Both the position numbers and the translations under genes were made by a program. 39,946 nucleotides of DNA from Acidobacteriota bacterium (GTDB taxonomy: Bacteria; Acidobacteriota; Blastocatellia; RBC074). Under the pieces are notes generated by a model. It ran no database searches, had not been told where the DNA came from, and worked only from the letters and a program-made list of their open reading frames with translations. This document shows, piece after piece, positions 523 to 35,269 of this stretch. The stretch covers positions 1 to 39,946 of the forward strand of contig JACPYM010000119.1 in assembly GCA_016196035.1 (NCBI GenBank), read 5' to 3'. Each line of letters begins with the position of its first letter. Position 1 is the stretch's first letter.

Positions 523-2601
523 ATGTTACACCGCAAGCTAGCGCTCTCGCTGTGCGCCGTCCTCTGTCTGAACCTCTGTCTGCAACGCTTCAACACGTCG
601 CAGGCGCAAAACGCGGCCATCACGATCAACGTGGACGCCGCCGCCAATCGGCACGCGATCAATCCGCTGATCTATGGCATGGCCTTCGCTGACACCGCGA
701 CGCTGAATGATCTGAACGTGCCGTCCAATCGCAATGGCGGTAATTCGACTTCGCGCTACAACTGGCAACTCAACGCCGACAACCGCGCGCAGGACTGGTA
801 CTTTCAAAGCATCGGTTATGCCAGCAGCACGGCAGGCGAAGTCGGCGACACTTTCATCGCCAACACGAAGGCCGCCAATGCGCAACCCATGCTGACGATT
901 CCGATGGTCGGCTACGTCGCCAAACTCGGCGCGAACCGCGCGAAGCTGTCGAGCTATTCGATTGCCAAATACGGCGCGCAAACCGACCGCGATTGGCAAT
1001 GGTTCCCCGACGCGGGCAACGGCATCCGCAGCAGCGACGGCGCGCGCATCACCTGGAATGATGTGAATGACGCCAATGTGCCCGCCGACCATGTCTTTCA
1101 ACGCGGTTGGATGACGCATCTGGTCAGCCGTTGGGGCACGACGGCGAATGGCGGGTTGCGCTATTACGTTTTGGATAACGAATACAGCCTCTGGCACGAC
1201 ACGCACCGCGATGTGCACAACACCGGCGCGACGATGGACGAAGTGCGCGACAAAATGTTCGCCTACGCCGAACAGGTGAAAGCGGCTGATCCAACGGCGC
1301 TTGTCGTCGGCCCCGAAGAATGGGGGTGGAGTGGCTACTTGCTGAGCGGCAAAGATCAACAGGTCGGCCCTTCGGTTGGTTGGAATTGGAGCCTGTTGCC
1401 GGATCGCAGCGCGCATGGTGGCTGGGATTATCTGCCTTGGCTGCTCAATCAATTCAAGCAGCGGCAGACCGCGACGGGCCAGCGGTTGCTGAATGTCTTC
1501 ACCGTGCATTTCTATCCGCAGGGCGGCGAATTCAGCAACGATACTTCGACCACGATGCAACAGCGGCGTAACCGTTCGACGCGCGCGCTGTGGGACGTGA
1601 ATTACATCGATGAAACCTGGATCAACGACAAGGTGAAACTGGTACCGCGCTTGAAAACTTGGGTGAGCACGTATTATCCCGGCACGCCGGTTGGCATTAC
1701 CGAATACAATTGGGGCGCGGAAAGCCACATCAACGGCGCGACCACGCAGGCCGACATCCTGGGCATTTTCGGACGCGAAGGACTGGACGTCGCCAATCGC
1801 TGGACGACGCCCGCTAACACGACGCCGACCTACAAGGCGATGAAAATGTATCGCAACTACGATGGTAACAAGTCTGCATTTGGGGATACGAGCGTCGCGG
1901 CAAGCGTGCCCAATCCGGATAACGTCGCGGCCTTTGCGGCGCAGCGCAGCAGTGATGGCGCACTGACGGTGATGGTGATCGGCAAAATGCTGTCGGGCAA
2001 TACGCCCGTGACGATCAATTTGGCGAACTTCGCGCACAACGGCGTCGCACAAGTCTGGCAATTGACGGCGAGCAATACAATCACGCGGTTGGCGGATACG
2101 GGCATCGCGGGCAATGCGTTGAACATCACGCTTCCGGCCCAGAGCATCACGTTGTTTGTGATTCCGGCTGGGGCGGGGAATCCAACGCCAACGCCAACGC
2201 CTGTTCCCTCACCGTCACCGTCACCGTCGCCAAGTCCCTCACCGTCACCCTCGCCCTCACCCAGCCCGACGCCCAGCGGTGCGAAGTGCACGGTCAAATA
2301 CGTCATCACGAATGATTGGGGGAACGGCTTCCTGGCGGATTTGACGATCACGAATCAATCAGGCGCGGCAATGAATGGCTGGACGTTGGCGTGGTCATTC
2401 GCGGGCAATCAGCGCATCACGAATCTGTGGAACGGCCTCGTGACGCAGACCAAGAAAGCAGTGAAGGTCAGGAATGAAAGCTGGAATGCGAGCATTTCGA
2501 ATGGCGGTTCGACAGCCATTGGCTTCACCGCCAATTACACCGGCAGCAATGCCATCCCGGCCAGCTTCACGCTGAACGGCTTGGCGTGCGCGCGGCAGTA
2601 G
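523..2601 (+). CDS. Secreted GH44 endoglucanase/xyloglucanase with C-terminal CBM2
   Basis: The 692-residue protein has a signal peptide (residues 1-29, ending near SQAQN), a glycoside hydrolase family 44 catalytic region (about 33-550), a Pro/Ser/Thr linker (554-585) and a family 2 carbohydrate-binding module (588-690). GH44 signatures include RNGGNSTSRYNWQ near 70-82. By family comparison the acid/base is E220 (in LDNEYSLW) and the nucleophile E394 (in GITEYNW). GH44 enzymes cleave internal beta-1,4 links in glucans such as carboxymethylcellulose and xyloglucan. The CBM2 has the expected aromatic residues W620, W636 and W654, suggesting binding to crystalline cellulose outside the cell. The start is supported by AAGGAG upstream. 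The gene stands alone, convergent with ispG. Substrate preference is inferred from the family. Confidence 0.93.
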   Translation: MLHRKLALSLCAVLCLNLCLQRFNTSQAQNAAITINVDAAANRHAINPLIYGMAFADTATLNDLNVPSNRNGGNSTSRYNWQLNADNRAQDWYFQSIGYASSTAGEVGDTFIANTKAANAQPMLTIPMVGYVAKLGANRAKLSSYSIAKYGAQTDRDWQWFPDAGNGIRSSDGARITWNDVNDANVPADHVFQRGWMTHLVSRWGTTANGGLRYYVLDNEYSLWHDTHRDVHNTGATMDEVRDKMFAYAEQVKAADPTALVVGPEEWGWSGYLLSGKDQQVGPSVGWNWSLLPDRSAHGGWDYLPWLLNQFKQRQTATGQRLLNVFTVHFYPQGGEFSNDTSTTMQQRRNRSTRALWDVNYIDETWINDKVKLVPRLKTWVSTYYPGTPVGITEYNWGAESHINGATTQADILGIFGREGLDVANRWTTPANTTPTYKAMKMYRNYDGNKSAFGDTSVAASVPNPDNVAAFAAQRSSDGALTVMVIGKMLSGNTPVTINLANFAHNGVAQVWQLTASNTITRLADTGIAGNALNITLPAQSITLFVIPAGAGNPTPTPTPVPSPSPSPSPSPSPSPSPSPSPTPSGAKCTVKYVITNDWGNGFLADLTITNQSGAAMNGWTLAWSFAGNQRITNLWNGLVTQTKKAVKVRNESWNASISNGGSTAIGFTANYTGSNAIPASFTLNGLACARQ
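2185..2277 (+). repeat. Pro-Ser/Thr linker coding repeat inside the GH44 gene
   Basis: Short tandem repeats of the type CCGTCACCGTCACC encode the alternating Pro-Thr and Pro-Ser linker between the catalytic domain and the CBM2. Such linkers are flexible tethers, and the DNA is a likely site of slippage and length variation. Confidence 0.85.
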
Positions 2602-5516: not shown

Positions 5517-6188
5517 ATGATGCTAAGCGCAACCGACCTGACACAATTGTCTGATGGCGAGCTTTGGCAGTGTGCGAGTCAGGGTGACGAAACCGCTTTC
5601 GTCACGCTCTATCGCCGCCGCCAGAGTGGTGTCTATCGGTTTGCGCTGCGCCTGAGCGGCTCCACGGCAATTGCCGAAGATGTGACACAAGAAGTTTTTT
5701 TGGCGCTCCTGCACGAGCGGCAACGCGCGGTGAGCCGTTATGATGCCGCGCGCAGTTCGTTGGCAAGTTATTTGTATGGCATCGCGCGCAACCAGGTGCT
5801 GCGCCGCTTTGAACGCGAGCGCAACCTGACGTCCTGGCCCAATGGATCGTGTCCGGACGATGACGACGATGATTTTCTGCTGGTTGACGAAGGCAATCCA
5901 TTAGGCGAGCTGACGCGGCAGGAAACAATTGAGTCGGTGCGGCAAGCCGTGCTGGCGCTGCCGCCGCATTACCGCGAAGTCGTGGTGTTATGCGATCTGC
6001 ACGAGTTGAGTTATTTGGAAACCGCCGCCGCGCTGGATTGCGCCGTCGGCACGGTGCGCTCGCGCTTGCATCGCGCGCGGGCGTTGCTGGTCGAGAAATT
6101 GCGCGCTTTGCAAGTGTTGGAAAAAGGGACGGCGACGGTCGCCGTCAAACATGAATTCGGTGTGTTATATGAAATGCGAGGAGTTTGA
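5517..6188 (+). CDS. ECF-type RNA polymerase sigma factor
   Basis: The 223-residue protein has a region 2 (about 27-95, with AEDVTQEVFLALL for core binding and -10 recognition) and a region 4 (about 141-195, with LPPHYREVVVLCDLHELSY and the GTVRSRLHRAR helix-turn-helix). There is no region 1 or 3, which is the extracytoplasmic function layout. The linker between the two regions contains six consecutive Asp residues (114-119). It overlaps the anti-sigma gene downstream, so the pair is very probably translationally coupled. There are two adjacent ATGs (5517, 5520) and no good Shine-Dalgarno, so the exact start is uncertain by one codon. The target promoters are unknown. Confidence 0.95.
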   Translation: MMLSATDLTQLSDGELWQCASQGDETAFVTLYRRRQSGVYRFALRLSGSTAIAEDVTQEVFLALLHERQRAVSRYDAARSSLASYLYGIARNQVLRRFERERNLTSWPNGSCPDDDDDDFLLVDEGNPLGELTRQETIESVRQAVLALPPHYREVVVLCDLHELSYLETAAALDCAVGTVRSRLHRARALLVEKLRALQVLEKGTATVAVKHEFGVLYEMRGV

Positions 6189-7038
6189 ACTTTCAGTCCG
6201 TGAGTTGGCGCGGCATCAACAGGTTGGCGAGTTGATGGACGCCGGACTGCGCGCGCAGATGAATGAGCACGCGCTCGGTTGCGCCGCGTGTGCGGCGCGT
6301 TTGGCGAATGCGTGTTGTTTGACGGAAGGCTTGCGCGCGTTGGCGCTCAGCACGGCATCCGGCAGTGCGCCCGCACACGTCGAAGCCGCGCTTTTGGCCG
6401 CTTTTCGGCAACCTGCATCGGCGACGATTGTGCCACTGGCAGCCGTGCGCGCACGCCGACAGTGGCCGCGTTGGGCGCTGGCGGCGGCGGCAATGTTGCT
6501 GATTGGCTTATTGGCCGTCGCCCTGCGCGCCACCTTGCGCAATACGCAGGCCCCGTCCGTAACCCCAAATGCATTGGCGGGCAAGGATCGTGCGCCTGCA
6601 TCTGTGAATCCGCCAGCCACTGGCATTCAGATTGTCGCTACGCCAGGCAGCCTTGCAAAAGTGGAGCAAACGCTGGCATCTATTCACTCAACCACGCCAA
6701 TGACCGTGGGCAAGACTGTGCAGGTCAAAGCGAAACACTTGCAGCCGCAGTACCGCATTGAGCGGTATCTGGTGGAAAGCGAAATCGCCACTGATTTTCT
6801 GCCTTTGACTGAAAATGCCGAACTGCCGAAAAGTGCGGAGATGCGAACCATTCGCGTGGAAGTCCCACGCGTGATGTTGTCGCGTTTCGGCTTGCCGATG
6901 AGTTTTGAGCGTGCGGCTGAACCGGTAAAAGCCGATCTGTTGATTGGCCCTGACGGACAGACACGCGCGATCCGTTTCATCCAAACTGGATTCGAACAAC
7001 CGCAGATTATTTCTGCTAATACTTCCAAAGACCGCTAG
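6169..7038 (+). CDS. Membrane anti-sigma factor with zinc-finger (ZAS) motif
   Basis: The 289-residue protein starting at 6169 begins MKCEEFE and carries C3 plus H34-x3-C38-x2-C41, the classic zinc-binding anti-sigma (zf-HC2) arrangement. A single transmembrane helix follows around 100-121 (ALAAAAMLLIGLLAVAL). The remaining 165 or so residues would be periplasmic and end in a segment rich in short beta strands that may sense an envelope signal. It overlaps the sigma gene by 20 bases. An ATG six codons earlier (6151) is possible, but MKCEEFE matches usual family starts. The expected role is to hold the ECF sigma factor inactive at the inner membrane until a signal arrives. Confidence 0.87.
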   Translation: MKCEEFELSVRELARHQQVGELMDAGLRAQMNEHALGCAACAARLANACCLTEGLRALALSTASGSAPAHVEAALLAAFRQPASATIVPLAAVRARRQWPRWALAAAAMLLIGLLAVALRATLRNTQAPSVTPNALAGKDRAPASVNPPATGIQIVATPGSLAKVEQTLASIHSTTPMTVGKTVQVKAKHLQPQYRIERYLVESEIATDFLPLTENAELPKSAEMRTIRVEVPRVMLSRFGLPMSFERAAEPVKADLLIGPDGQTRAIRFIQTGFEQPQIISANTSKDR

Positions 7039-7050
7039 AAAGAGAGCCTT

Positions 7051-8442
7051 ATGAGCAAACGCAAACAAGCCTTCGTCTCCACGGCTTGCGCCTGCGCGTT
7101 AGTCGCCCAAAGCGTCAGCGTCACCGCGCAAGACAAACCTAAACCCAAGCCCGCCGAACAAACTTTTGAGCGGGTCGTGGTGGAACCGAGCGGCAACGGT
7201 GCGGCAACGTTCACCGTGCGCACGGCTGATCCGGCAGGGTTGCCGGGCGGCACTGCTTACGCCTACACCCAAAACTCAAGCGGCGTTTTCATCACGGGCC
7301 AGGGCGGCAGCGGCGGCGGCACCTTTGGCTTTATGGCTGCCGAAAGCTTTGACAGCAAGGTCGTCAAAGGCGCGCCGTATTCCGCTGAGAGCGTGACCGA
7401 ATTCGCGCAAACGCTGGCCGATGGCAATCGCCTGACGCGGCGTTCGTCGAGCATGGTCTATCGCGACAGCCAGGGACGCATGCGGCGCGAGCAAAACGCG
7501 ATGCCCGTCGGCCTGTCCGAATGGATCAACACGGAGAATATGCCGAGCACCACAATCATCAGCGACCCGGTCGAGGGCGCGACCTATGTGCTCGATCAGA
7601 AACAGCGCCTCGCGCGCCGCAGCCGTCTGCTCGCCGCCACCGTTACGAATGTGAGCGCCGGGGGGACGTTAATGCGCACAGCGATTGCCGCGCCTGAAGC
7701 CGGTGTCGCCGTTGCGGGCGCACCGCCACAACAAATGCCGCAACAAATCAAAGTGTCCGGCGGCGTCTTGCAGGGCAGTGCGCTGCGCAAAGTTCAGCCG
7801 CCCTATCCGCCCGCCGCCAAAACCGCCCGTGCGGAAGGCGCTGTGCAAGTGCAAGTCACGATCAGTGAAAAAGGAGAGGTCATTGATGCTTCGGTCGTCA
7901 GCGGCCATCCGTTGTTGCGCGAGGCTACCCTAAGTGCGGCGCGCCAATGGCAGTTCAAACCGACCGAACTCGGCGGCGTGCCGGTCAAGGTGCAGGGCGT
8001 GCTGACGTTCAACTTCACGCTTGAGGATGGCGGCGCGAAACCGACTGAAGCGGCCAATCGCGGGCAAACTGAGGCTGTGTTGAAGACCGGGACAGCCGGG
8101 ATGCGCATGAATTTCAATCGCGAGTCGCTCGGCAAACAAATGATCGAAGGGATTGAATGCGAAGGCACGCGCATGGTTTCGACCATTCCCGCCGGCCAAA
8201 TCGGTAATGAGCGGCCCCTCGAAATCATCAACGAACGTTGGTATTCGCCGGAACTGCAACTCACCGTGATGACCAAACAGTCCGATCCGCGCTACGGCGA
8301 AACGGTCTTCCGGCTGGCCAATCTCACACGGGCTGAACCCGATGAATATCTGTTCAAAGTCCCCAGCGAATACACCATCAAGGACGAGAACTTCGGCTTC
8401 CGTGTGATGGAAGATAAAGTGCGCCGTCCGGAAGAGCGTTAA
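7051..8442 (+). CDS. Secreted protein with an internal TonB C-terminal domain
   Basis: The 463-residue protein has a signal peptide (about 1-26) but no membrane anchor or long proline-rich spacer, so it is not a usual TonB energy transducer. A TonB-C domain lies at about 237-328 (VQPPYPPAAKTARAEGAVQVQVTISEKG, abbreviated here to its key YPPAA and EGAV motifs, then ARQWQFKP). It is flanked by an N-terminal part (about 95-215; GAPYSAESVTE, YRDSQGRMRREQ) and a C-terminal part (about 345-460; GIECEGTRMVSTIPAGQIG, ERWYSPELQLTVMTK). From memory, these two parts are contiguous in other acidobacterial secreted proteins. It lies 12 bases after the anti-sigma gene with GAGAG upstream, so it is the likely effector of the sigma cassette. 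Confidence 0.87.
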   Translation: MSKRKQAFVSTACACALVAQSVSVTAQDKPKPKPAEQTFERVVVEPSGNGAATFTVRTADPAGLPGGTAYAYTQNSSGVFITGQGGSGGGTFGFMAAESFDSKVVKGAPYSAESVTEFAQTLADGNRLTRRSSSMVYRDSQGRMRREQNAMPVGLSEWINTENMPSTTIISDPVEGATYVLDQKQRLARRSRLLAATVTNVSAGGTLMRTAIAAPEAGVAVAGAPPQQMPQQIKVSGGVLQGSALRKVQPPYPPAAKTARAEGAVQVQVTISEKGEVIDASVVSGHPLLREATLSAARQWQFKPTELGGVPVKVQGVLTFNFTLEDGGAKPTEAANRGQTEAVLKTGTAGMRMNFNRESLGKQMIEGIECEGTRMVSTIPAGQIGNERPLEIINERWYSPELQLTVMTKQSDPRYGETVFRLANLTRAEPDEYLFKVPSEYTIKDENFGFRVMEDKVRRPEER

Positions 8443-8592: not shown

Positions 8593-11500
8593 ATGAAACT
8601 CTCTTTTCCCAAACTCTTCCTCGTGCTTCTGGCCTGCGCAATTTCCCCAACCGCACAACAACCAGCCAACAACGCCGCAGACGACGCGGCCATCCGCGCA
8701 GTTGTTTCGCGCTACTTTGAAACCTGGGCCAGCGAAGACCTGGACGGGCACATGGCGCTCTGGACGGGATTGGAACAGGATCGCCAAACACGCCGCGAAG
8801 CCATGCAACGCCGCTTTGCCGAGGCTGATTTCAGTTTCTCGCCGCTCACCATTTTGCGCGTCAAACAGCAAGGCGGCACGGCCAGCCTTTACGCCAAGAC
8901 CGAACGCCGCACGGTCACACCGGCAACGCCAACCCTCGCAGTGACTCCAGTGCTGATCGCGTTCTCGCTGGTCAAAGAAGAGGTGTGGCGCATTATGCGC
9001 GAGCAACCGCTGGGCACGGCGTTGATGTTTGAATTTCTCGGCGCTTCAGAAGCCGAGTTGCCGTCTTTGCTCGAAACCGCGCAGGCCTTGGCGTCGCCCG
9101 ATCTGGCGCAATTGTTGGCCAGCCAGAGCGACCGGCAATTCGCCAGCGGCCAGTACAAAACGGCGCTCAAAACTTTGCAGTTGGTGCTCGCCATCGCGGA
9201 AACACTCAACGACAAAAAGACGCAGGCCGATGTCTGGCACAACACCGGCACCGGTTATTTCTTTTTGCGGGATTACCAGCAGGCGCTGGCCGCCCACCAA
9301 AAGGCGCTAGTGCTAGAGCGGCAATTGGGCCGCAAAGCCGAAACCGCCAAGGTGTTTGCCAGCCTGGGGCTGACGCATCTGTTGTTGCAACAACCGCGCG
9401 TGGCGCTGGCGGAATATCAGCAGGCGCTGGCGCTGTATGAAACGCTGAATGAGCGCGGCGAGGTCTCGCAAACGCTCGAAGCCATCGGCAATGTGCATTA
9501 TGACCAGGGCGATTATGTCAAAGCGCTGGCGCAATACCGCAAAAGCCTCGATTACCTGACGTCCACGACGACGGCCACCTATGCCAACCGTCTGGTCAAG
9601 ATTGCGCGCGTGGCTTATGAATTGGGCGATGACGCGCTGGCGCTCGAACATTACCGGCGCGCGCTCGAAAGTTTCGACCAGGCCGGGAACCGCAGCAGCC
9701 GGGGTTTCGTGCTGCACAGCATCGCCAACATCTATTACAACCAGGGCGATCTGACGCAGGCCTTGCAGCATTACCAACTCAGCCAGCAGGCCGAAGAGCG
9801 CGCGGGCAGTCCCAATGGCAGCGCCAGCGCCTTGCAAGGCATTGGGCTGGTGCACGTGCTCAATGGCGATTACGCGCTCGCCTTACCGGCTTACGAACGC
9901 AATCTGAGCATCGCGAAGCTGCTGCGTGACAAAGGGCAGGAAGCCTTCGCCGTGCAGAAAGTCGCGGGCACGTGTTTCGCGCTGGGCGATTACGCGCGCG
10001 CCTTGCAGCTTTACGAAGAAGCCTTGAAGCTGCGCGAGGACCTGGGCGACCGGCGCGAAGTCGCCAGCGCCTTGCTTGATCTGGGCATTACGCACCAGGC
10101 CCTGGGCAATTACGCCGCAGCGTTGCGCCTGGATGAAAAGAGCCGCGCCGCATACGCCACGCTCAACCTGCCCGCCGGCGTGGCGAACGCATTGCTCAAC
10201 GCCGCCATCGTGCATTACGTGCAAAACAATTTCACCCAGGCGCTGGCAGTGGCCGACGAAGCCGCGACATTCGCCAAACTCGCTGAGGAAGACGAATTGC
10301 TCTGGCGCGCGCGTTATCGCGCGGGCAAGTGCCAGCAGCAATTGCAGCAACTCCCGCTCGCGCGCCAAGCCTTGAGTGAAGCCATCACCCTGATCGAAAA
10401 GCAACGCCCCGCGCCCGGTAGCACGCCAGCGAGCCGTTCCAACGAAAACAAAAGTGGGCCGTATCTGGCAATGGTGGACGTCTTACTGGCCTTGAATCAG
10501 GGCGCCGAAGCGTTCCAATTCGCCGAACGCGCCAAGCAACGCGGGTTGTTGACGATGCTGCGCGGCGGGCGCGGCTGGATCACCAACGCGATGACGAAAG
10601 CGGAGCAGGAACGCGAAGGTCAACTGGTCAACGACCTGGCGCTGCTCAATGCGCAACTCGCGCGCGAAAACGAAAAACAACAACCAAACACGGTGCGCGT
10701 GCAGGCATTGACCAAACAATGGCAGCAAACGCGGCTGGCTTACGATGCATTTTTGCAGCGTCTCTATCGCCTGCATCCGCAATTGAAAACGCTGCGCGGC
10801 GAAGGCCCCGCCGTGACCGCGCTGCAAGCCGGGCAACTCGTGATGGATGAACGCCGCGCCTTGCTGGCGTATAGCGAAACTGAAGACCGCATCGTGCTGT
10901 TCCTGTTCAGTAAAGAGCACGCAGCCAAAACACCCGCGCTGAAAATCTTTGCGCTTGGCAGCAATCGCGGCGAGTTGTACCAGCGACTGACACAACTGCA
11001 AACGGCGCTGGTCGCGCGTAATGCCGCCGCAGACGCACAATTGCGCGAGCTTTACGACGAACTTCTGGAACCCGCGCGGGCGCAGTTAGAGGGCAAAACA
11101 CAACTCATCATTGCGCCCGATGGCTTGCTCTGGAATTTACCCTTTGCCGCGTTGCAACCACGCGCCGCGCATTACCTGATCGAAGATTTCGCGCTTACCT
11201 ACACGCCTTCAGCGACGGCCTGGCAAGCCATGTCGCAAGCGGGTGGCGCAACCATTGCCGTCCGCACGCGAACAGGCGCGCGCGTCGCCGCAAAGCCGAA
11301 CGCGCCGCCAGAAACGCTGCTGACCTTTGCCAACCCTACCTTGAGCGATGAAATGCTCACGCGGTTGAAAGCGCGCTTGCAACACGAGGCCTTTGCTGTG
11401 AACGCCGAAACGGAAAACGAAGCAGCGGCAATCAGCCAGGCTTTTGCGGCGGCCCAGCAACAACGTTTCAGCGGTGCTGAAGCGACCGCACAACGCGCCA

Positions 11501-11964
11501 AAACTGCTGCGTCCCAAGCGCGTTGGCTGCATTTCGCCGCGCCCGCCGTGCTGGATGAAATGAACCCCTTGCAATCCGGTGTGGCCCTGGCCGTCGCCGC
11601 GAACGAGACGAACGAGGACGGAATGCTGACTTGGCGCGAGGCGCTGCAACTGAAACTGCCGGCCCGGTTGGTGAGCTTCACGGCGGCGGAAACAGCGCCT
11701 GCGCGCTTGGGCAATGGGCGCGCGCAGGTGGCGACGAGTTGGGCATTTTTCATTGCCGGATGTTCGAACCTGCTCTTGAATCAATGGCCGGTTGCAGGCA
11801 GCGGCACGACCGCGTTGATGCAAGAGTTTTACCGGCAAGCGCGTCTGCAACCGTTCCCCTCGCGTGCGGAGGCCTGGCAACAGGCTGTGCTTGCGCTGTT
11901 ACAAACGGCTGAATATCGCCATCCATATTATTGGGCTGGCTTCAAGTTGTTTGGCGTGAATTGA
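8593..11964 (+). CDS. Secreted NTF2-like/TPR/CHAT-domain protein with apparently dead CHAT catalytic site
   Basis: The 1123-residue protein has a signal peptide (about 1-22), an NTF2/SnoaL-like domain (about 28-145), a long series of tetratricopeptide repeats (about 160-620, many with the WHNTGTGYF and YNQGDLTQALQHY pattern) and a C-terminal CHAT domain (about 830-1123, ending in the typical HPYYWAGFKLFG). CHAT is a caspase/separase-like cysteine protease fold. Active members have a His in LHFATHG and a Cys in LSACET. Here the equivalent segments are LHFAAPA (980-ish, His replaced by P984) and FTAAET (Cys replaced by A1032). Protease activity is therefore unlikely, and the protein probably works as a scaffold or receptor. 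No ribosome-binding site is obvious. It follows the terminator at 8476, so it has its own promoter. Confidence 0.9.
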   Translation: MKLSFPKLFLVLLACAISPTAQQPANNAADDAAIRAVVSRYFETWASEDLDGHMALWTGLEQDRQTRREAMQRRFAEADFSFSPLTILRVKQQGGTASLYAKTERRTVTPATPTLAVTPVLIAFSLVKEEVWRIMREQPLGTALMFEFLGASEAELPSLLETAQALASPDLAQLLASQSDRQFASGQYKTALKTLQLVLAIAETLNDKKTQADVWHNTGTGYFFLRDYQQALAAHQKALVLERQLGRKAETAKVFASLGLTHLLLQQPRVALAEYQQALALYETLNERGEVSQTLEAIGNVHYDQGDYVKALAQYRKSLDYLTSTTTATYANRLVKIARVAYELGDDALALEHYRRALESFDQAGNRSSRGFVLHSIANIYYNQGDLTQALQHYQLSQQAEERAGSPNGSASALQGIGLVHVLNGDYALALPAYERNLSIAKLLRDKGQEAFAVQKVAGTCFALGDYARALQLYEEALKLREDLGDRREVASALLDLGITHQALGNYAAALRLDEKSRAAYATLNLPAGVANALLNAAIVHYVQNNFTQALAVADEAATFAKLAEEDELLWRARYRAGKCQQQLQQLPLARQALSEAITLIEKQRPAPGSTPASRSNENKSGPYLAMVDVLLALNQGAEAFQFAERAKQRGLLTMLRGGRGWITNAMTKAEQEREGQLVNDLALLNAQLARENEKQQPNTVRVQALTKQWQQTRLAYDAFLQRLYRLHPQLKTLRGEGPAVTALQAGQLVMDERRALLAYSETEDRIVLFLFSKEHAAKTPALKIFALGSNRGELYQRLTQLQTALVARNAAADAQLRELYDELLEPARAQLEGKTQLIIAPDGLLWNLPFAALQPRAAHYLIEDFALTYTPSATAWQAMSQAGGATIAVRTRTGARVAAKPNAPPETLLTFANPTLSDEMLTRLKARLQHEAFAVNAETENEAAAISQAFAAAQQQRFSGAEATAQRAKTAASQARWLHFAAPAVLDEMNPLQSGVALAVAANETNEDGMLTWREALQLKLPARLVSFTAAETAPARLGNGRAQVATSWAFFIAGCSNLLLNQWPVAGSGTTALMQEFYRQARLQPFPSRAEAWQQAVLALLQTAEYRHPYYWAGFKLFGVN

Positions 11965-15041: not shown

Positions 15042-18000
15042 TTACTTGTTCTTAACCGGGAACAACTGCATCGTTGGATCGCCGAACAGCACATAGCTAT
15101 TGCGCACATCGCGGTCAATGGCAGCGACGCGGGCGGCGGTCATGGCCTGGCCCAGCGTCAGCCCGGAATTGAAAAGCGAGCGATAGAACGTTTGTGCAAA
15201 AACCAGTTGCGCCGCTGGTTGGTTGAGCGCGCTCGACGAGACGACGGCGAAGGCCCCGCCGGATGCATTGGTCAACACCGCTTCGCCCAGACTGGTTTGT
15301 TGCGGGTCTATGAAATAGCCGTTCAGACAGGTCGCCATGACAAACAAACCCGCCGCGTTGTTGGTCAGGGTCGCGGCATCCTGCGTGCGCAACAGGCCGT
15401 CGCCTGTCCACACTTGGGTCGAACCATGCCCGAACCAATTGACCACCAGCGGCGTCTGGTTATTGATGAATTGCACGATGCCTTGACGCACGGCGTCCGG
15501 CGTGCCGTCAGTACGATTGACCTGCTGTTTCGTCCAGCTTGCGGGTAATAAGGCGGCCAGTTGATTGCTCAATCTCTTGTAGTCATAGCCATCCACCGTG
15601 CGATCTGAAACCAGCAAGGCGTTGCGGGGCGCGGTGCTGGATTTGAAGGCCAGGATTTTATTGATGACAGCTTCAGCCTGTGCGGCAGTGCGCACCGGCA
15701 AACGTCCCAGCGCCAATTCAGGCACGCCGTCGTTATTGAAATCGGCCAGCCAGTTGTCGAGTCCCGTTTCAAAATAAGTCGTTGCGCCCAACCAGGTCGG
15801 CACGAAATCGGCATTGCCCAAGCCCAGATAGTCGCGCGGATCGCTGGACGCATCGCCCAATAGCAAAGCATAGGCGGGTTTGCGCGCCCAGTTTTTACCG
15901 GCGCAGGTCAGCAGGTCTTTGAGGGCTTGGGGCGTGTGCGCGCCATAGGCGAATTCATCGTAAACGTCTTCAACGTCTATGACGGCGACGCGCAGGCCAT
16001 TCTGGCGGCGCGCATTGGCGAGTTTGTTGGCACTGTTCCAGAATTCGCGCGAAGTGATGATGATGAAATCCGCCGCATTGCTGGCGGCGCGCCAATTGGA
16101 AGGTTGATTGCGCGTGAGGGCCGCGACACGTTCCGGGCGATTATCGCCTAACGCCAGATAGGTCGCGCCTTCGCCCAGCAAGGCAAAGCCATAACTGCCA
16201 TTGACGAGTTGCGCTTTGACCGTGATCTCGCGCTCAGCGCCGTTGCCGTTCAATTTCAACAGGCGCAGGCTGGGCGTGCTGAAGCCACTGATAAAGGCGC
16301 TTTGCCCGGCGCTCAAGCTGAAGCTCAAGGCATCGTTGTCGGCTCGATAGGCGCGCGCGTAGGTCAGCCGCACGGCGTCCACCAAATTGACGTCGCTCGC
16401 GCCCGCCGCCGACAGCAGTTTGATTTCATTCTCACCCTCCAGCAGCCACGCGCCCGGCACGTCAAAACGCTGGACAGGATGGGCTTTGCCTGTGAAGTTC
16501 ATGGTGGCGAGATAGCGGCCATTGACTTCGATGTTGACGGCGTGCGTTTGATCGGTGACGCCTTGCAAGGCGAGTTCGAGCGTCGCGCTGGCGTTGCGCT
16601 CGACAAAGCGCGTGGTCAATGTTTGCAATGCGCCGGTGGCACTGATGACGGGGCCGAACCAGTTTTCGGCCTCGCCATTGAGCAGACCGGAAAAGTAGAT
16701 GATGCGGTCTTTGCGTTCAACCGTTGAGCGAAAACTGCTGCTGGTGAATTGGTCGGGAATCCTGCTTGTGACAGTCTCAAGCCGCAGCCCCGGCCCATTC
16801 CCGAACGTCAGCCAATAGATGCGCGTATCCGTCGCGGGCAGTTCCAGCCCGCGTCCGAAAAACTCCAACGACTCAAAACCGAATGCGCCTTTGCCGAACA
16901 CTCTCATGGGGACTTCGACGCCATCGGCATAGAGTTGCAGCAGCAGCGGGTTGCCGTTGGTGTTGAACCCGGCGGCGGTCAACTCGGCTTGCGTCACGCG
17001 GTACCAACCGGTTTTGCGCACGGCCAGCTTCATGGCCGTTTGATTGGGCAACGTCCAGGGCGTGCTTTTGGGATCACTCGCCGCCATCAACGCGGACAAG
17101 GGCAAAGATTCGGCGCCGCCTTGGTTCGCATATTCTGCTGGCGTCTCGGCCCATTCGGATTGTTGCGTGGGATTGGTTGCGTCACTCAACTCAGAGAGTA
17201 GTTTGGTTCGGAGCTGCGACGGATAGGTTTCAGGATTGGCAACGTTGCCGGTTGCGATGACTGGCCCGTGCCAGGTGCTGTTGCCGCGCAGATCAATCTC
17301 TTCCAGCCAGTACGCCACACTCGCCGCACCGCGCGCATCCGTCCAGGTGTAGGAATTGCCGGCGGTCAAAGGCGTGCGCTCACCGGCTAGCAGCGCCGAA
17401 CCGGCAATCAACGTCGGATTGATTTTGAGGCGTTGGCCGCCGTCTTCACGATAAACATTGAAGCCCAGATGATCCGCTTCAAAGCCTGTCTGCCAGGCGA
17501 CAGTCACGCCGCTGCTGGCTTTAGAAAAAGACTTGTTGGCGTAAGCATTGAGCGCGGCCAGGTGCACGGCTAACGGCGCGTCGGGTTGACCGGCGCTCCA
17601 ATTGGAAAAGCTGGTGACATTGCTGATTGCGGCAATGTGGGTTGTTTCGTCCACGTTATCGGTGCTGCCGCCGGGCAGCGTGATGGGCGCGCTGCCGTTG
17701 GTGTCTTTGAGAATGCGGAACAGACTCTCAGTGGCGGTGACGGGTATGTCGCTCGCCAGATAGGTGAAGCCCAGATTGAGATCGGGGCTGACCAACGTGC
17801 TGGTCAAATTCCAATACCGATTGAGCGCCAATGTTGGCGCGGCCAAACCGGGCATGGATGTCTGAAAGGCCGTGATCGTGAGGTCGCCCGTGCCGCCGTT
17901 GATGGTCACTGCCACGGGCGAGTAACCGTTGGCCGTACCGGTGTGATAGGTGAAGCTGCCCGTGCCGGCAATGGTTTTTTTGACGCTGCCGATGAGGTGG

Positions 18001-20660
18001 CCCGAAGTGCGGCTGGCGTTCGCGCCACTGCCGAACGCAATCAGGCTGCCGGTTGCGGCAGTGAGGTTGCCGCCCGTGAGCGTGAGCGTGCCGTTGATGG
18101 TCAGCGTGTGATTGTTGGTGAGATTGAGCGTGCGGCCGGTGTTGAGCGTCAGGTTGTTTACCGTCACATCGCCGGTGCTGATGCTGACTTCGTTGGTGAC
18201 ACCGCTGGCGGGCAGAGTGACATCCGCGCCGGAAGCTGGGACAGCGTTGTTGCTCCAATTCCCGGCGGTGTGCCAATCGCTCGAAACCGCGCCCGTCCAG
18301 GTCGGCCCGTTGATGGTCACGCTGTAGGCGCGCGAACCTACGCAATCGCTGGCCGTGTCTGTCGCGCTGATCGTGAAATTGAACGTGTTGATGGCCGTGG
18401 GGGTGCCGCTGAGCAAGCCGGTGTTGGCGTTGAGCATCAAGCCATTGGGCAACGAACCGGCACTAACGCTGAATGCATACGTGCCGCCGCCGCCACTGGC
18501 CGTGATGGTTTGCGAATACGCCGTGCCGACCGAGCCATTTGGCAGCGAAGTCGGACTAACCGTGATGGCAGGACAGGTGCTCAGGAATTTGTAGACGTAG
18601 GCCGAGCCTTGATCGGTATCCGTGACATCGTCATACAAACTGCCGACGAGCAGCGTCTCGCCTTGGAAGGCCACGGCGTAACCGAATTGATCGCCGACAT
18701 CGCCGTCACTGGCGACTACCTTTTTGAATTGGCCCCAGTTATTCGTGAGCGGCGTGCCCGGATTGTTCGGATCGTAATCGCGCATGAAGGCATACGCCGA
18801 GCCTTGGTCGGTGTTGAGGCCGACGTTATCGGCATAGGCTCCGATGATGGCGATGTCGCCATCCACGGCCACCGCGAACCCGAACTGATCGTTGAGCGCG
18901 GCATCTCCGGCGGTGAGCTTTTTGATTTGCCCCCAATTATTCGCGCCGCCCTGATTGCGCAAGAACACATAGGCCGAGCCGCTGCTGTTGCCGCCGTCGT
19001 CATCATCCGGCGCGCCGACGACGGCGGTGTCGTTGTGTAACGCGACTGCCGCGCCGAAATGATCGTTGAGCGCGCCATCGCTGGCGGCAATCCGTTTGAC
19101 TTCGCCCCAATTGTCCGCGCCGCCCTGGTTGCGTTGGTAAAGATAGGCCGCGCCTTTGTTGTCGGTGAAGGTCGCCGCGTCACCCAGGTAAGCGCCGACG
19201 ATGAGCGTTTCGTTGCTGAGCGCGACGGCATAGCCGAACTGGTCATTGTTGGCCGCATTGCCGGCAGTCAGTATTTTGCGTTCGCCCCAGTTGTTCGTCA
19301 GTGGTGTGCCGGGATTGCTGGGATCGTAATCCTGTTCAAACAGATAAACGGCCCCGCGACTTGAATTGATGAAATTCGCGCCGACGGCCAGCCGGTTGCC
19401 GCTGAGCGCGACAGACCAGCCGAAACTGTCGCCACTCGACCCATTACTAGCGCTGACTTTCTTGATCAGGCCCCAATTGTCTGTGCCGCCTTGATTGCGT
19501 CCGTAAAGGTAAACCGCGCCTTCGTTGTCGGCGTTGGCGACCGAATCGCCGCTCAAGGCGCCGACGGCCACGATGTCGCCGCTGATGGCGACCGCCGCGC
19601 CGAAATTGTCATCGGCCTGCCCGGCGGGGTCTTCCAGCTTGATGACTTCGCCCCAGTTGTTCGCGCCACCCACATCCCGTTGAAAAATGTAGGCTGCGCC
19701 TTGAAAGGAATTCCCGCCCACCGTGGCATAGATCGCACCGACGACGGCTGTGTCGCCATTGACGGCGACGGCTGCGCCGAAAGTATCATCGGCCGCGCCA
19801 TCACTGGCCGAAAGCTGTTTGACCTGGGTAAAAGTCGGGTCAATCGTAATCGGATAAACGGCCTGTGCATCGTCAACGACCAAAGATAACTCTTGCCCGC
19901 GAACCTCCATGCGCGAGGGCAAGGCGCGTCCCGTGGCATCAACGCTGGCGAGTTTGTCATAGCGCAAAACTTCGCTGCCGTTATTCGCCGCAAACGATAC
20001 GGCCTGCGCACCAGCGGTCAACATGGGCTGCAAGTCACCGCCGACTGCCAACACCAGGCGCACTGGAGCCGCCGTGTTTGGCACCGGCCGCACCTGCAAC
20101 GTGAAGCCTTGCTCCAAGCCGGCAGGCGCATTGACATACCATTCGATGAGCGGGGTTTGATTACTCGTGCCAACGGTCTTCTGAATTTCAACGCGATTGT
20201 TTTGTGCGGTGGGCTGGGCCGCTGTCACCGGCAACCAAGCGCCGCCAACCTGAACACCGCGCAGTTGCAGGCCCATACGCCAGCTTGCGTCCTGCGCAGG
20301 CAGTAGCTGCATCGCGCCGCCTGCGGTGAAATAGGCGCGGAGAGCTTGTGCCGGGTTTTGTACCGCAAACGCGCCCAGCGGAGCATGGTCGAATAGCGGC
20401 AGGGGAGTATGCGGCAGTGGGGTAGCGCGATAGCGCGCATCCAGCAGGGATTTGCGCAGGGAGTCATACGCGCCAGCCTGTTTTAACTGTGCCAAGGCCG
20501 CCGCTCCGCGCAAAGGCGTTTGATTATTCGCGGCGGCGGAATGAACTTGCTGCGGTAGCGGGCGCAGGCAAAGCGCGGCCACCACCAGCAGCGCGAACGG
20601 CAACAGCAAGCGCTGGTCGAATTTTGGATAGCAGAAACGCAGTAGTAGGAACAAAAGCAT
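15042..20660 (-). CDS. Giant secreted C25 (gingipain-like) cysteine peptidase with FG-GAP repeats
   Basis: The 1872-residue protein starts at 20660, where AGGAG lies 9 bases upstream; an ATG at 20702 has weaker support. After a hydrophobic signal (about 15-38) come a propeptide-like region, seven FG-GAP repeats (about 270-690, each with DxFGxAVAxxGDxxxVGA), an Ig-like putative sugar-binding/adhesion domain (about 690-790), a beta-rich segment starting with [16 protein letters not shown], and a C-terminal peptidase C25 domain (about 1500-1865). The catalytic His is H1745 in WFGHGS and the Cys is C1778 in MATCLNGYF, 33 residues apart as in gingipain R. The usual ending [12 protein letters not shown] is present. 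No type IX sorting domain is seen. It is probably an extracellular or surface peptidase of unknown specificity. Confidence 0.92.
18590..19850 (-). repeat. Seven FG-GAP tandem repeats in the C25 peptidase gene
   Basis: Seven repeats of roughly 55-62 codons each encode the integrin-like FG-GAP pattern and would together form one beta-propeller. The repeats are similar at DNA level too (for example the recurring words for NWGE/NWGQ and DQFGYAVA), so this stretch is prone to recombination and assembly error. Confidence 0.85.
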
Positions 20661-20698
20661 GTCGTGGAACTCCTGAAAGAATCTGGGGATGAGCAATA

Positions 20699-20728
20699 GC
20701 AAAAGGGCTGGCCTGAACAGCCAGCCCT
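20699..20728 (-). terminator. Rho-independent terminator after the BNR-propeller gene
   Basis: On the minus strand AGGGCTGGC and GCCAGCCCT form a perfect 9-bp stem (20704-20712 with 20720-20728) with a 7-nt loop, followed by TTTTG. It begins 21 bases after the stop of the 20750-24196 gene and separates it from the C25 gene. Confidence 0.8.
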
Positions 20729-33510: not shown

Positions 33511-35055
33511 CTAAGGTTTTGTGAAAGAGATATAAAAGCGCGGATTCGGCTCTTCGCGATCTCGGTAAATTTGCAAGACCACCGCCTCGCCCGCGCGCAG
33601 CCGGTCGAAAATCTTTGCGTACTCGGCCTTTGATTTGATCGGTTCGCGATTGAACATTTCGATGACATCGCCACTCTTCAGCCCCGCATCGTCCGCCAAA
33701 CTGCCGGGCGCGACATTGCCGACAAATACGCCTTTGACCTCGCTCGTCAGCTTGCCAATCCCCATCTGGTTGCGTAGATCGCTGACCGTGATACCCAACG
33801 ATTGCGGGCGCAACAATTCAATGCGGGCCGCTTTCAGTTGGTCAACGATCGGTTCGGCATCCGGGCGGCGGCCTATGGTGATATTCAAAATTTGCTCGCG
33901 GCCGTTGCGATAGATTTTAACGGGGGCGGTGGTACCGACCGGCGTCGTGCCGATGCGGCGCATCAGGTCCTTGTCGTCGCGGATGCGTTCGCCACGGAAT
34001 TCCCAGATCACGTCATTGACCAGCAACCCGGCTTTGGCGGCAGGGCTGACCACCGGTTGCCGATCTACAAAAACTGTGTCGCCGATATTGCTGACGATGG
34101 CGCCGCGTGTTGCGGGCAAGTTGAAGACCTTGGCGATCTGGGGGGTGACAGGTTCTGTATTCACGCCCAGAAACCCACGCACGACATGCCCGTTTTTGAT
34201 CAATTGATGATAGATGAGCAACGCCTCGCTCATCGGCAGCGCAAAGCCGATACCGTTGTAATCGCCCGTCGTTGTGGCAATCGCGGTGTTGATGCCGATG
34301 ACTTCGCCCATCAAATTGATCAATGGCCCACCCGAATTGCCCGGATTGATCGCCGCATCGGTTTGCAGAAAGTATTGAAAACCGCGTCCGGCACGTTTGT
34401 TGAGTTCGGTGGCTTCACGATCTTTGGCGCTGATGATGCCGGCAGTAACGGTCTGACTCAGATTGAAGGGCGAGCCAATAGCCATCACCCAATCACCGAC
34501 ACGCGCCCGCTCTGAATCGCCGGTGCGCGCCGCTTGCAATTCTTTGGCCGGCTCGACCTTGATCACTGCCAAATCTGTTTCCATATCACTGCCAATGACG
34601 CGCGCGGGCAATTCATTGCCGTCAAAAAATTTGACAATGATACGGTCGGCATCGGCGATGACGTGTTGATTGGTCAGAATGTAACCTGCGGCGTCCACGA
34701 TCACACCCGAACCGTTCCCGCGCCGGGCACGTTCCCGCGCGGAAAAAGGTTCCAGGGAAGGGCGTTCTTCGATGATGATTTCGCGGCGGCTACGCAGGGC
34801 GGGTTGCGAGACGGTGCTGATGTTGACGACCGATGGTTCAACGCGCCGGGCGATCTCGACGAAGGCGGAGGACATCTCGACGCTTACTTCACCGAGGCTC
34901 GCAATAGCCGGACGCTTGGTCGCCGAGAAAATCACCCCAATGATGATGCCGAACGCCAGGGTGCAAGCCGCAATCGCCACCAGGATAGCGCGGTCACGCG
35001 CACGACGCTGTTGGGCGAGCATGCTTTCCCATTGTTTAGGCGACGTGTCTTGCAT
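33511..35055 (-). CDS. HtrA/Deg-family periplasmic serine protease with two PDZ domains
   Basis: Read from ATG 35055 the protein has 514 residues: an N-terminal membrane anchor (about 24-44), a trypsin-like protease domain (about 60-275) and two PDZ domains (about 290-400 and 415-510). The catalytic triad is H131 (TNQHVI), D161 (ETDLAVIK) and S241 (NPGNSGGP). It degrades or refolds damaged envelope proteins in the periplasm. A TTG start at 35100 would add 15 residues, but the ATG is more likely. Between the anchor and the protease domain there is a short charged linker rich in Arg and Glu (about 90-112). The gene precedes the peptidoglycan-binding protein gene, which suggests a joint role in envelope maintenance. 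Confidence 0.97.
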   Translation of the reverse strand: MQDTSPKQWESMLAQQRRARDRAILVAIAACTLAFGIIIGVIFSATKRPAIASLGEVSVEMSSAFVEIARRVEPSVVNISTVSQPALRSRREIIIEERPSLEPFSARERARRGNGSGVIVDAAGYILTNQHVIADADRIIVKFFDGNELPARVIGSDMETDLAVIKVEPAKELQAARTGDSERARVGDWVMAIGSPFNLSQTVTAGIISAKDREATELNKRAGRGFQYFLQTDAAINPGNSGGPLINLMGEVIGINTAIATTTGDYNGIGFALPMSEALLIYHQLIKNGHVVRGFLGVNTEPVTPQIAKVFNLPATRGAIVSNIGDTVFVDRQPVVSPAAKAGLLVNDVIWEFRGERIRDDKDLMRRIGTTPVGTTAPVKIYRNGREQILNITIGRRPDAEPIVDQLKAARIELLRPQSLGITVSDLRNQMGIGKLTSEVKGVFVGNVAPGSLADDAGLKSGDVIEMFNREPIKSKAEYAKIFDRLRAGEAVVLQIYRDREEPNPRFYISFTKP

Positions 35056-35269
35056 CACGACTTCAAAATCTACGGCGAGCCTTCGCTCCGCCAGCGTCAA
35101 ATTGCTTCAAGTAAGAACGTCAGAAGGGGGATGGACAACGGAACGTGTCGTAAAAGGTAGGCGGAGTATAGCAAATGGCTTCCGGTGCGAACAGCCTGAA
35201 ACATGCCTGACACGAGAAAGTTTTTAGCGCAGAAAATTCCGGCGAGCGCTAACAGTAAGGTTCAGATAA

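Follow-up and report, generated by a model that had tools for sequence, protein, structure and literature searches.

The TPR-CHAT protein encoded in the window (the whole stretch of DNA that was analysed, 39,946 nucleotides from an acidobacterial contig) lacks both catalytic residues of its CHAT domain. This double loss is shared by a clade spread over two families, in which core residues of the domain are kept, and purifying selection acts on the domain in relatives of the window gene. The gene probably encodes an exported pseudoprotease that works by binding. Export is suggested by signal-peptide-like starts; proteolysis would be absent, and binding would be the remaining function. In the proposed explanation, an ancestor with a working His-Cys protease would have lost both catalytic residues together with the catalytic loops, and the core of the domain would have been kept for binding proteins, at the C-terminal end of a TPR scaffold that is probably periplasmic. 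In the window and in one orthologue (G003), a likely partner would be the product of the second gene upstream, a putative membrane anti-sigma factor, which may be bound and let go again without being cut.

The CHAT domain and its catalytic positions

The gene and its parts are located as follows.

8593..11964, + strand: gene of the probable TPR-CHAT pseudoprotease, 1123 aa (open frame; Pfam TPR and CHAT matches)
8593..8655, + strand: signal-peptide-like N-terminus, aa 1-21 (read by eye; hydrophobicity)
8686..9042, + strand: possible NTF2/SnoaL-like domain, weak, bounds approximate (matches in relatives, none in the window protein)
9145..10452, + strand: TPR array, about aa 185-620, bounds approximate (PF13424, E 4.2e-40, four stretches; further TPR models)
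11038..11955, + strand: CHAT domain without the catalytic dyad, aa 816-1121 (PF12770, E 3.9e-48)
11542..11544, + strand: codon of Pro984, at the catalytic His position (several CHAT alignments)
11686..11688, + strand: codon of Ala1032, at the catalytic Cys position (several CHAT alignments)

The CHAT domain matched PF12770 with 164.8 bits against a cut-off of 24, over positions 3-288 of the 289 in the profile, and scored 169 bits in a PF12770 search of the whole genome. An earlier note, made from the sequence alone, had described an NTF2-TPR-CHAT layout. The TPR and CHAT parts were recovered with Pfam. The NTF2-like part was weak: the window protein had no Pfam match there, DUF4440, SnoaL_4 and SnoaL_3 were matched in four of the five members of alignment A6 (best E 1e-4), and one member from the second family (G053) lacks this N-terminal part. 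With PADLOC the window CHAT protein matched a TPR model only, and four other proteins matched nothing. Peptidase C14 (p20) was absent from the 16 Pfam families listed.

The catalytic His and Cys of an active peptidase are both missing from the window domain, with Pro984 and Ala1032 in their places. The segments concerned are LHFAAPA (aa 979-985, nt 11527-11547) and FTAAET (aa 1029-1034). In an alignment with 31 other CHAT domains (29 from the same genome and the dead orthologues of G003 and G006), these two columns held His and Cys in all 29 domains of the window genome. A profile of the 32 domains matched Csx29 chains (best E 1.7e-6) and separase (1.2e-5). This broader profile was needed to reach solved structures: a PDB search with a five-row alignment of dead CHAT domains gave no match, and the best 60 of 304 matches obtained with a full-length alignment all fell in the TPR part. 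The Pro984 and Ala1032 columns fall on the CHGEA and ACET segments of the solved Csx29 chains, and counting residues along chain 7x8a_D places them at His585 and Cys627. These two residues are given as the catalytic pair of Csx29 in its description (PMC9729208). The dyad assignment thus goes beyond motif resemblance, and the changes first noted, His to P984 and Cys to A1032, were found at the same residues and within the same interval. The HPYYWAGFKLFG end, reported as kept, was found at aa 1110-1121, beyond the interval then given and within the same open reading frame. A structure model of the window CHAT domain and one Bacteroidia relative was built from these two sequences only and was unusable (mean pLDDT 37.2), so what is said of its fold is based on sequence.

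Signal peptides were judged by eye and by hydrophobicity. The window protein starts with Lys, a hydrophobic stretch and then TA-QQ, and an LLAC resembling a lipobox is also present. Similar starts were seen in orthologues (FA-QQ in G003, HA-QT in G006, FG-QS in G008). All four begin with a charged residue, followed by a hydrophobic stretch that ends in small residues, a form typical of exported proteins. The window protein is probably exported to the periplasm, and the signal-peptide-like start suggests this location rather than that of a cytosolic receptor.

Of the 35 PF12770 hits in the window genome, 34 have both His and Cys, as called by one alignment (29), by another (3) or by eye (2), and the single exception is the window gene; some of the weaker hits are other caspase-like types. 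With so many intact relatives in the same cell, several of them with hydrophobic N-termini of their own (L078 and L163, for example), the window protein might be a decoy or regulator of intact TPR-CHAT proteases, pairing with them or holding their substrates. Control of active cousins is a role ascribed to pseudoenzymes (PMC11266112). However, the window's contig has a single CHAT hit, that of the dead domain, and thus encodes no intact partner, and the decoy role is considered possible while somewhat unlikely.

The dead clade and selection on its domain

The search for further cases yielded 116 distinct CHAT stretches with E 1e-15 or better, at loci drawn with PF12770, the window protein or an alignment of dead domains. 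In this sample of hits, which is neither random nor a census, 99 stretches have both residues, 11 have neither, one has lost the His only, and five stop short of the Cys column (two of these keep the His). At the His and Cys positions the 11 dead rows have Pro/Ala (six), Pro/Thr (two), Gln/Ser (two) or Thr/Ser (one). The idea that Pro and Ala themselves are conserved among orthologues therefore holds in part, Pro being present in eight of the 11 rows and Ala in six, with other residues in the remaining rows. Six dead rows come from family f1 (the window genome, G003, G006, G007, G008 and G010) and five from a single genus of family f3 (G053, G132, G139, G143 and G145). The stretch that lost the His only (L057, genome G014) has Pro at that position with the Cys kept, and sits on a long branch away from the dead clade.

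The dead rows were also grouped in trees. In a quick tree of 108 of the 116 stretches (the five not reaching the Cys, and L048, L146 and L147, were left out), all 11 group together (94), with L057 placed elsewhere. A more careful tree was made from 55 of the 108 rows after removal of the dyad columns and two columns on either side. In this tree 10 of the 11 dead rows form one clade with a support of 98/90, the eleventh (G007) joins it at 88/59, and all 11 were grouped in 86% of 200 bootstrap trees, in a bootstrap that had not settled. The dead rows likely share a single origin, and this is less certain for G007. Two further accounts of the missing residues were rejected: an assembly or sequencing error, as the same losses occur in independent relatives, and the loss of a single residue, as 11 rows lack both and the row without the His alone lies elsewhere in the tree.

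Searches of further genomes were used to describe how the family is distributed. Within the class, 89 of 162 genomes had a match at 1e-40 (best 11 candidates per genome), and within the phylum 17 of 396 had one at 1e-60, seven of them outside the class (best four per genome). The top six matches of the class search, at 587-651 bits, were the five profile rows and a sister. Other dead rows scored about 305-421 bits and the best match outside the class 337; these ranges overlap, so score alone cannot pick out dead rows and the residues were read instead. They were read in 12 of the 24 listed matches, all nine outside the class and three inside it, and all 12 have His and Cys; with only the best few candidates scored in each genome, dead members elsewhere may have escaped. 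In the 11 f1 genomes, searching at full length recovered dead members from the window genome, G003, G006, G008 and G010, that of G010 as two pieces at contig ends, together with the shorter G007 protein (842 aa). At 1e-150 no dead member was found among the best 68 candidates per genome in G002, G004, G005 and G009 (the last 83% complete). A scan of genome contigs gave five loci, from which L065 was used, and a scan of viral contigs gave no relative.

A rival reading is that the window copy, unlike its relatives, is decaying and will be lost. Its branch (1.13, against a median of 0.48) is the longest in its five-row subclade. In addition, the two matches of the same-genus genome G001 (L041 and L125) keep the dyad, and no dead member was found there. 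However, G001 is only 73% complete. The frame of the window gene is open over 1123 codons, its core columns are kept, its CHAT domain is 37-42% identical to those of the other four rows of alignment A2, and the upstream gene order is kept with G003. Decay of the window copy is thus regarded as highly unlikely. The gene is not a lone decayed one, as the double loss occurs in 11 rows and no member of the dead group has the dyad.

Columns of the domain were compared between the 11 dead and the 99 intact rows. Strong conservation, defined as one residue in at least 85% of the intact rows, was found in 53 columns. Nineteen of these are unchanged in every dead row (820, 827, 851, 854, 873, 915, 964, 992, 995, 1010, 1012, 1055, 1056, 1065, 1111, 1114, 1115, 1117 and 1121), and the kept residues include F851, P915, P992, S995, G1010, G1056, W1065, P1111 and W1114. 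In another 14 the usual residue is missing from more than half of the dead rows (937, 938, 984, 1022, 1029-1032, 1034, 1037, 1043, 1044, 1072 and 1095). Most of the latter are the two catalytic positions and their loops, centred on 984, 1029-1034, 1037, 1043-1044 and 937-938; the window copy itself retains the usual residue at 1022, 1031, 1034 and 1072. The statement that the rest of the domain is kept is accordingly right for the 19 columns and too broad for the 14. As the losses are centred on the catalytic loops and the core is kept, the pattern fits a pseudoenzyme more than general decay.

Could the domain still be catalytic through a rearranged site, with a Ser or Thr nucleophile or with the upstream His980? 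The Cys position is occupied by Ser in three of the 11 dead rows and by Thr in two, and His980 is kept in 91% of them. Ser918 is present in 82% of dead rows, whereas the leading residue of the intact rows is Gly (40%). It is one of eight positions at which at least 80% of dead rows have one other residue (R721, K732, L783, E819, S918, R1015, A1044 and W1052; the window itself has Phe at 1052). However, the Cys position is Ala in six of the 11 rows, and His980 is equally common in intact rows (93%) and so cannot count as a substitute. Ser918 is far in sequence from the catalytic segments, 66 residues N-terminal to the His position, and is missing from some dead rows. The nucleophile loop is scrambled, and the column comparison revealed no new conserved His, Cys or Thr in the dead rows. 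A rearranged active site is therefore given very little credence. The same comparison disposes of a shifted alignment masking a conserved His or Cys; a conserved His or Cys elsewhere in the site, which would have refuted the earlier note, did not appear.

Selection was measured on relatives of the window gene, which itself has no close relative. For the pair G006/G010, dN/dS was 0.15 in the dead CHAT domain, 0.11 in the part just before it and 0.14 in the N-terminal part. The dead domains of G139/G143, G139/G145 and G143/G145 gave 0.13, 0.20 and 0.16. Over the last 300 residues of four intact pairs the values were 0.13, 0.09, 0.10 and 0.18. All of these values are approximate, since synonymous sites have diverged strongly (0.8-1.3 for the dead pairs; of the four intact pairs, three have 1.5-1.6 and one 0.3). 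Pairs involving G132 or G053 were left out because their synonymous sites are at or near saturation. By these ratios the inactive CHAT domain is under purifying selection in the relatives. Together with the double loss shared by 11 rows and the kept core columns, this supports the original proposal that catalysis was lost and the domain retained; the sensor or decoy role suggested along with it is conjectural.

Gene neighbourhood and a candidate partner

Three genes precede the CHAT gene on the same strand.

5517..6188, + strand: ECF sigma factor, 223 aa (Sigma70_r4_2, E 3.7e-17; Sigma70_r2, E 7e-15)
6151..7038, + strand: putative membrane anti-sigma factor, 295 aa, in a frame that overlaps the sigma gene (HALGCAAC motif; hydrophobic segment from aa 109)
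7051..8442, + strand: TonB_C protein, 463 aa (PF03544, E 7.9e-19)

Sigma regions 2 and 4 were both matched in the first of these genes. The 295-aa protein had no significant match to a Pfam family; it has an HxxxCxxC motif, which we take to be the sign of a zinc-binding anti-sigma factor (ZAS), and one hydrophobic segment. The order of sigma factor, putative anti-sigma factor, TonB_C protein and CHAT protein is common to the window and G003, with identities of 61, 37, 44 and 41%, respectively. Sigma and anti-sigma neighbours were not seen beside the gene in G006, G007, G008, G010 and the f3 members, though G010, G132, G143 and G145 offer only short contigs here. The window, G003 and G008 all have a beta-lactamase-family gene and an EamA transporter gene close to the CHAT gene. 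A BON-domain gene lies directly 3' of the CHAT gene in G003, G008 and G010 and not in the window; in G003 (L066, 13468-14070) its product has a signal-peptide-like start.

Other genes of the window also deserve mention. The 1886-aa protein encoded at 15042-20702 (- strand) combines FG-GAP repeats with a Peptidase_C25 domain at its C-terminus (E 6.7e-74). C25 is another caspase-fold family, and in this protein GHG and ATC segments are present, so that His and Cys are seemingly kept. Besides the sigma and putative anti-sigma genes, the window also contains a gene at 33511-35100 (- strand) for a protein with Trypsin_2 and PDZ domains in an HtrA/DegS-like layout. The gene at 523-2601 (+ strand) encodes a family 44 glycoside hydrolase that carries a CBM_2 domain.

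Of 28 CHAT genes examined in the window genome (the window's included), eight have a sigma-like gene among the four listed upstream neighbours, and in five of the eight a membrane protein is encoded between the two. These calls differ in their basis. Pfam matches to sigma families were above the cut-off for the window and L180 and only below it for L176 and L174; L163 and L182 were called by phmmer, and L170 and L175 by a profile alone (4e-6 and 4e-11), one built partly from genes that it then detected. In the protein adjoining the sigma-like one, zf-HC2 was matched above the cut-off in L163 and just below it in L159, a region of genome G161. This region holds L108, the intact row nearest the dead clade (87/76), whose CHAT gene sits behind a sigma-like gene and a gene for a membrane protein with an HxxxCxxC motif. 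A sigma-like gene, a membrane protein and an intact TPR-CHAT protein were seen in L163, L174, L176, L180 and L159, possibly a recurring cassette.

The CHAT domain of the window protein may regulate the co-encoded putative anti-sigma factor without cutting it. The gene order shared with G003 and the setting of the nearest intact row (its zf-HC2 match lying just under the cut-off) argue for this role, and Csx29 is reported to cut an inhibitor of an ECF-like sigma factor (PMC10028731). However, the order was not seen in the other f1 genomes compared or in the f3 members (some of these contigs being short), and sigma-like genes were found for only the eight of 28 CHAT genes mentioned above. Such a role is put forward tentatively and is judged unlikely at present. 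A wider proposal is that a clade of exported TPR-CHAT proteins has switched the control of ECF sigma factors to anti-sigma binding, while intact sisters behind similar genes cut. This is rated as unlikely; if true, a single signalling design would exist side by side in a form that cuts and a form that does not.

Comparison with known systems

The preferred reading, an exported pseudoprotease that works by binding, can be set beside two groups of known proteins. Csx29, the TPR-CHAT protein of type III-E CRISPR, resembles the window protein in that a TPR array is followed by a CHAT domain, and the catalytic columns align. Unlike Csx29, the window protein is without the dyad and is probably exported. 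Csx29 cleaves Csx30, the inhibitor of an ECF-like sigma factor, within an RNA-guided complex (PMC10028731). In contrast, no such complex was seen at the window, where no Cas family was matched among the 19 Pfam-scanned frames besides the CHAT gene. Csx29 also has an inactive caspase-like domain of its own, the pseudo-caspase half CHAT1, which shares in contacts with Cas7-11 according to the same source (PMC10028731). An inactive domain in a TPR-CHAT protein is therefore common to both, but the second half of Csx29 (CHAT2) is active, whereas in the window protein the catalytic half is the dead one.

The pseudo-orthocaspases of cyanobacteria and Alphaproteobacteria are likewise conserved caspase-fold proteins in which the His-Cys dyad is lost, as in the dead clade (PMC6426788; PMC7889975). 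They have Tyr and Ser at the two positions, in a p20 domain. In the dead clade the His position is Pro, Gln or Thr and the Cys position Ala, Ser or Thr, and the domain is a CHAT domain that follows TPRs. Deletion of a pseudo-orthocaspase was described as raising the tolerance to oxidative stress (PMC6426788; PMC7889975). A conserved TPR-CHAT clade with a dead catalytic half was not found among the titles and abstract openings listed in searches of open-licence papers. Inactive bacterial caspase-fold proteins are thus already known, and a dead catalytic CHAT half behind TPRs in a conserved clade is new as far as these searches go. With this clade, dead and intact versions can be compared as they occur in nature. 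The gene order suggests that some exported TPR-CHAT proteins may act on anti-sigma factors, for which Csx29 provides a precedent.
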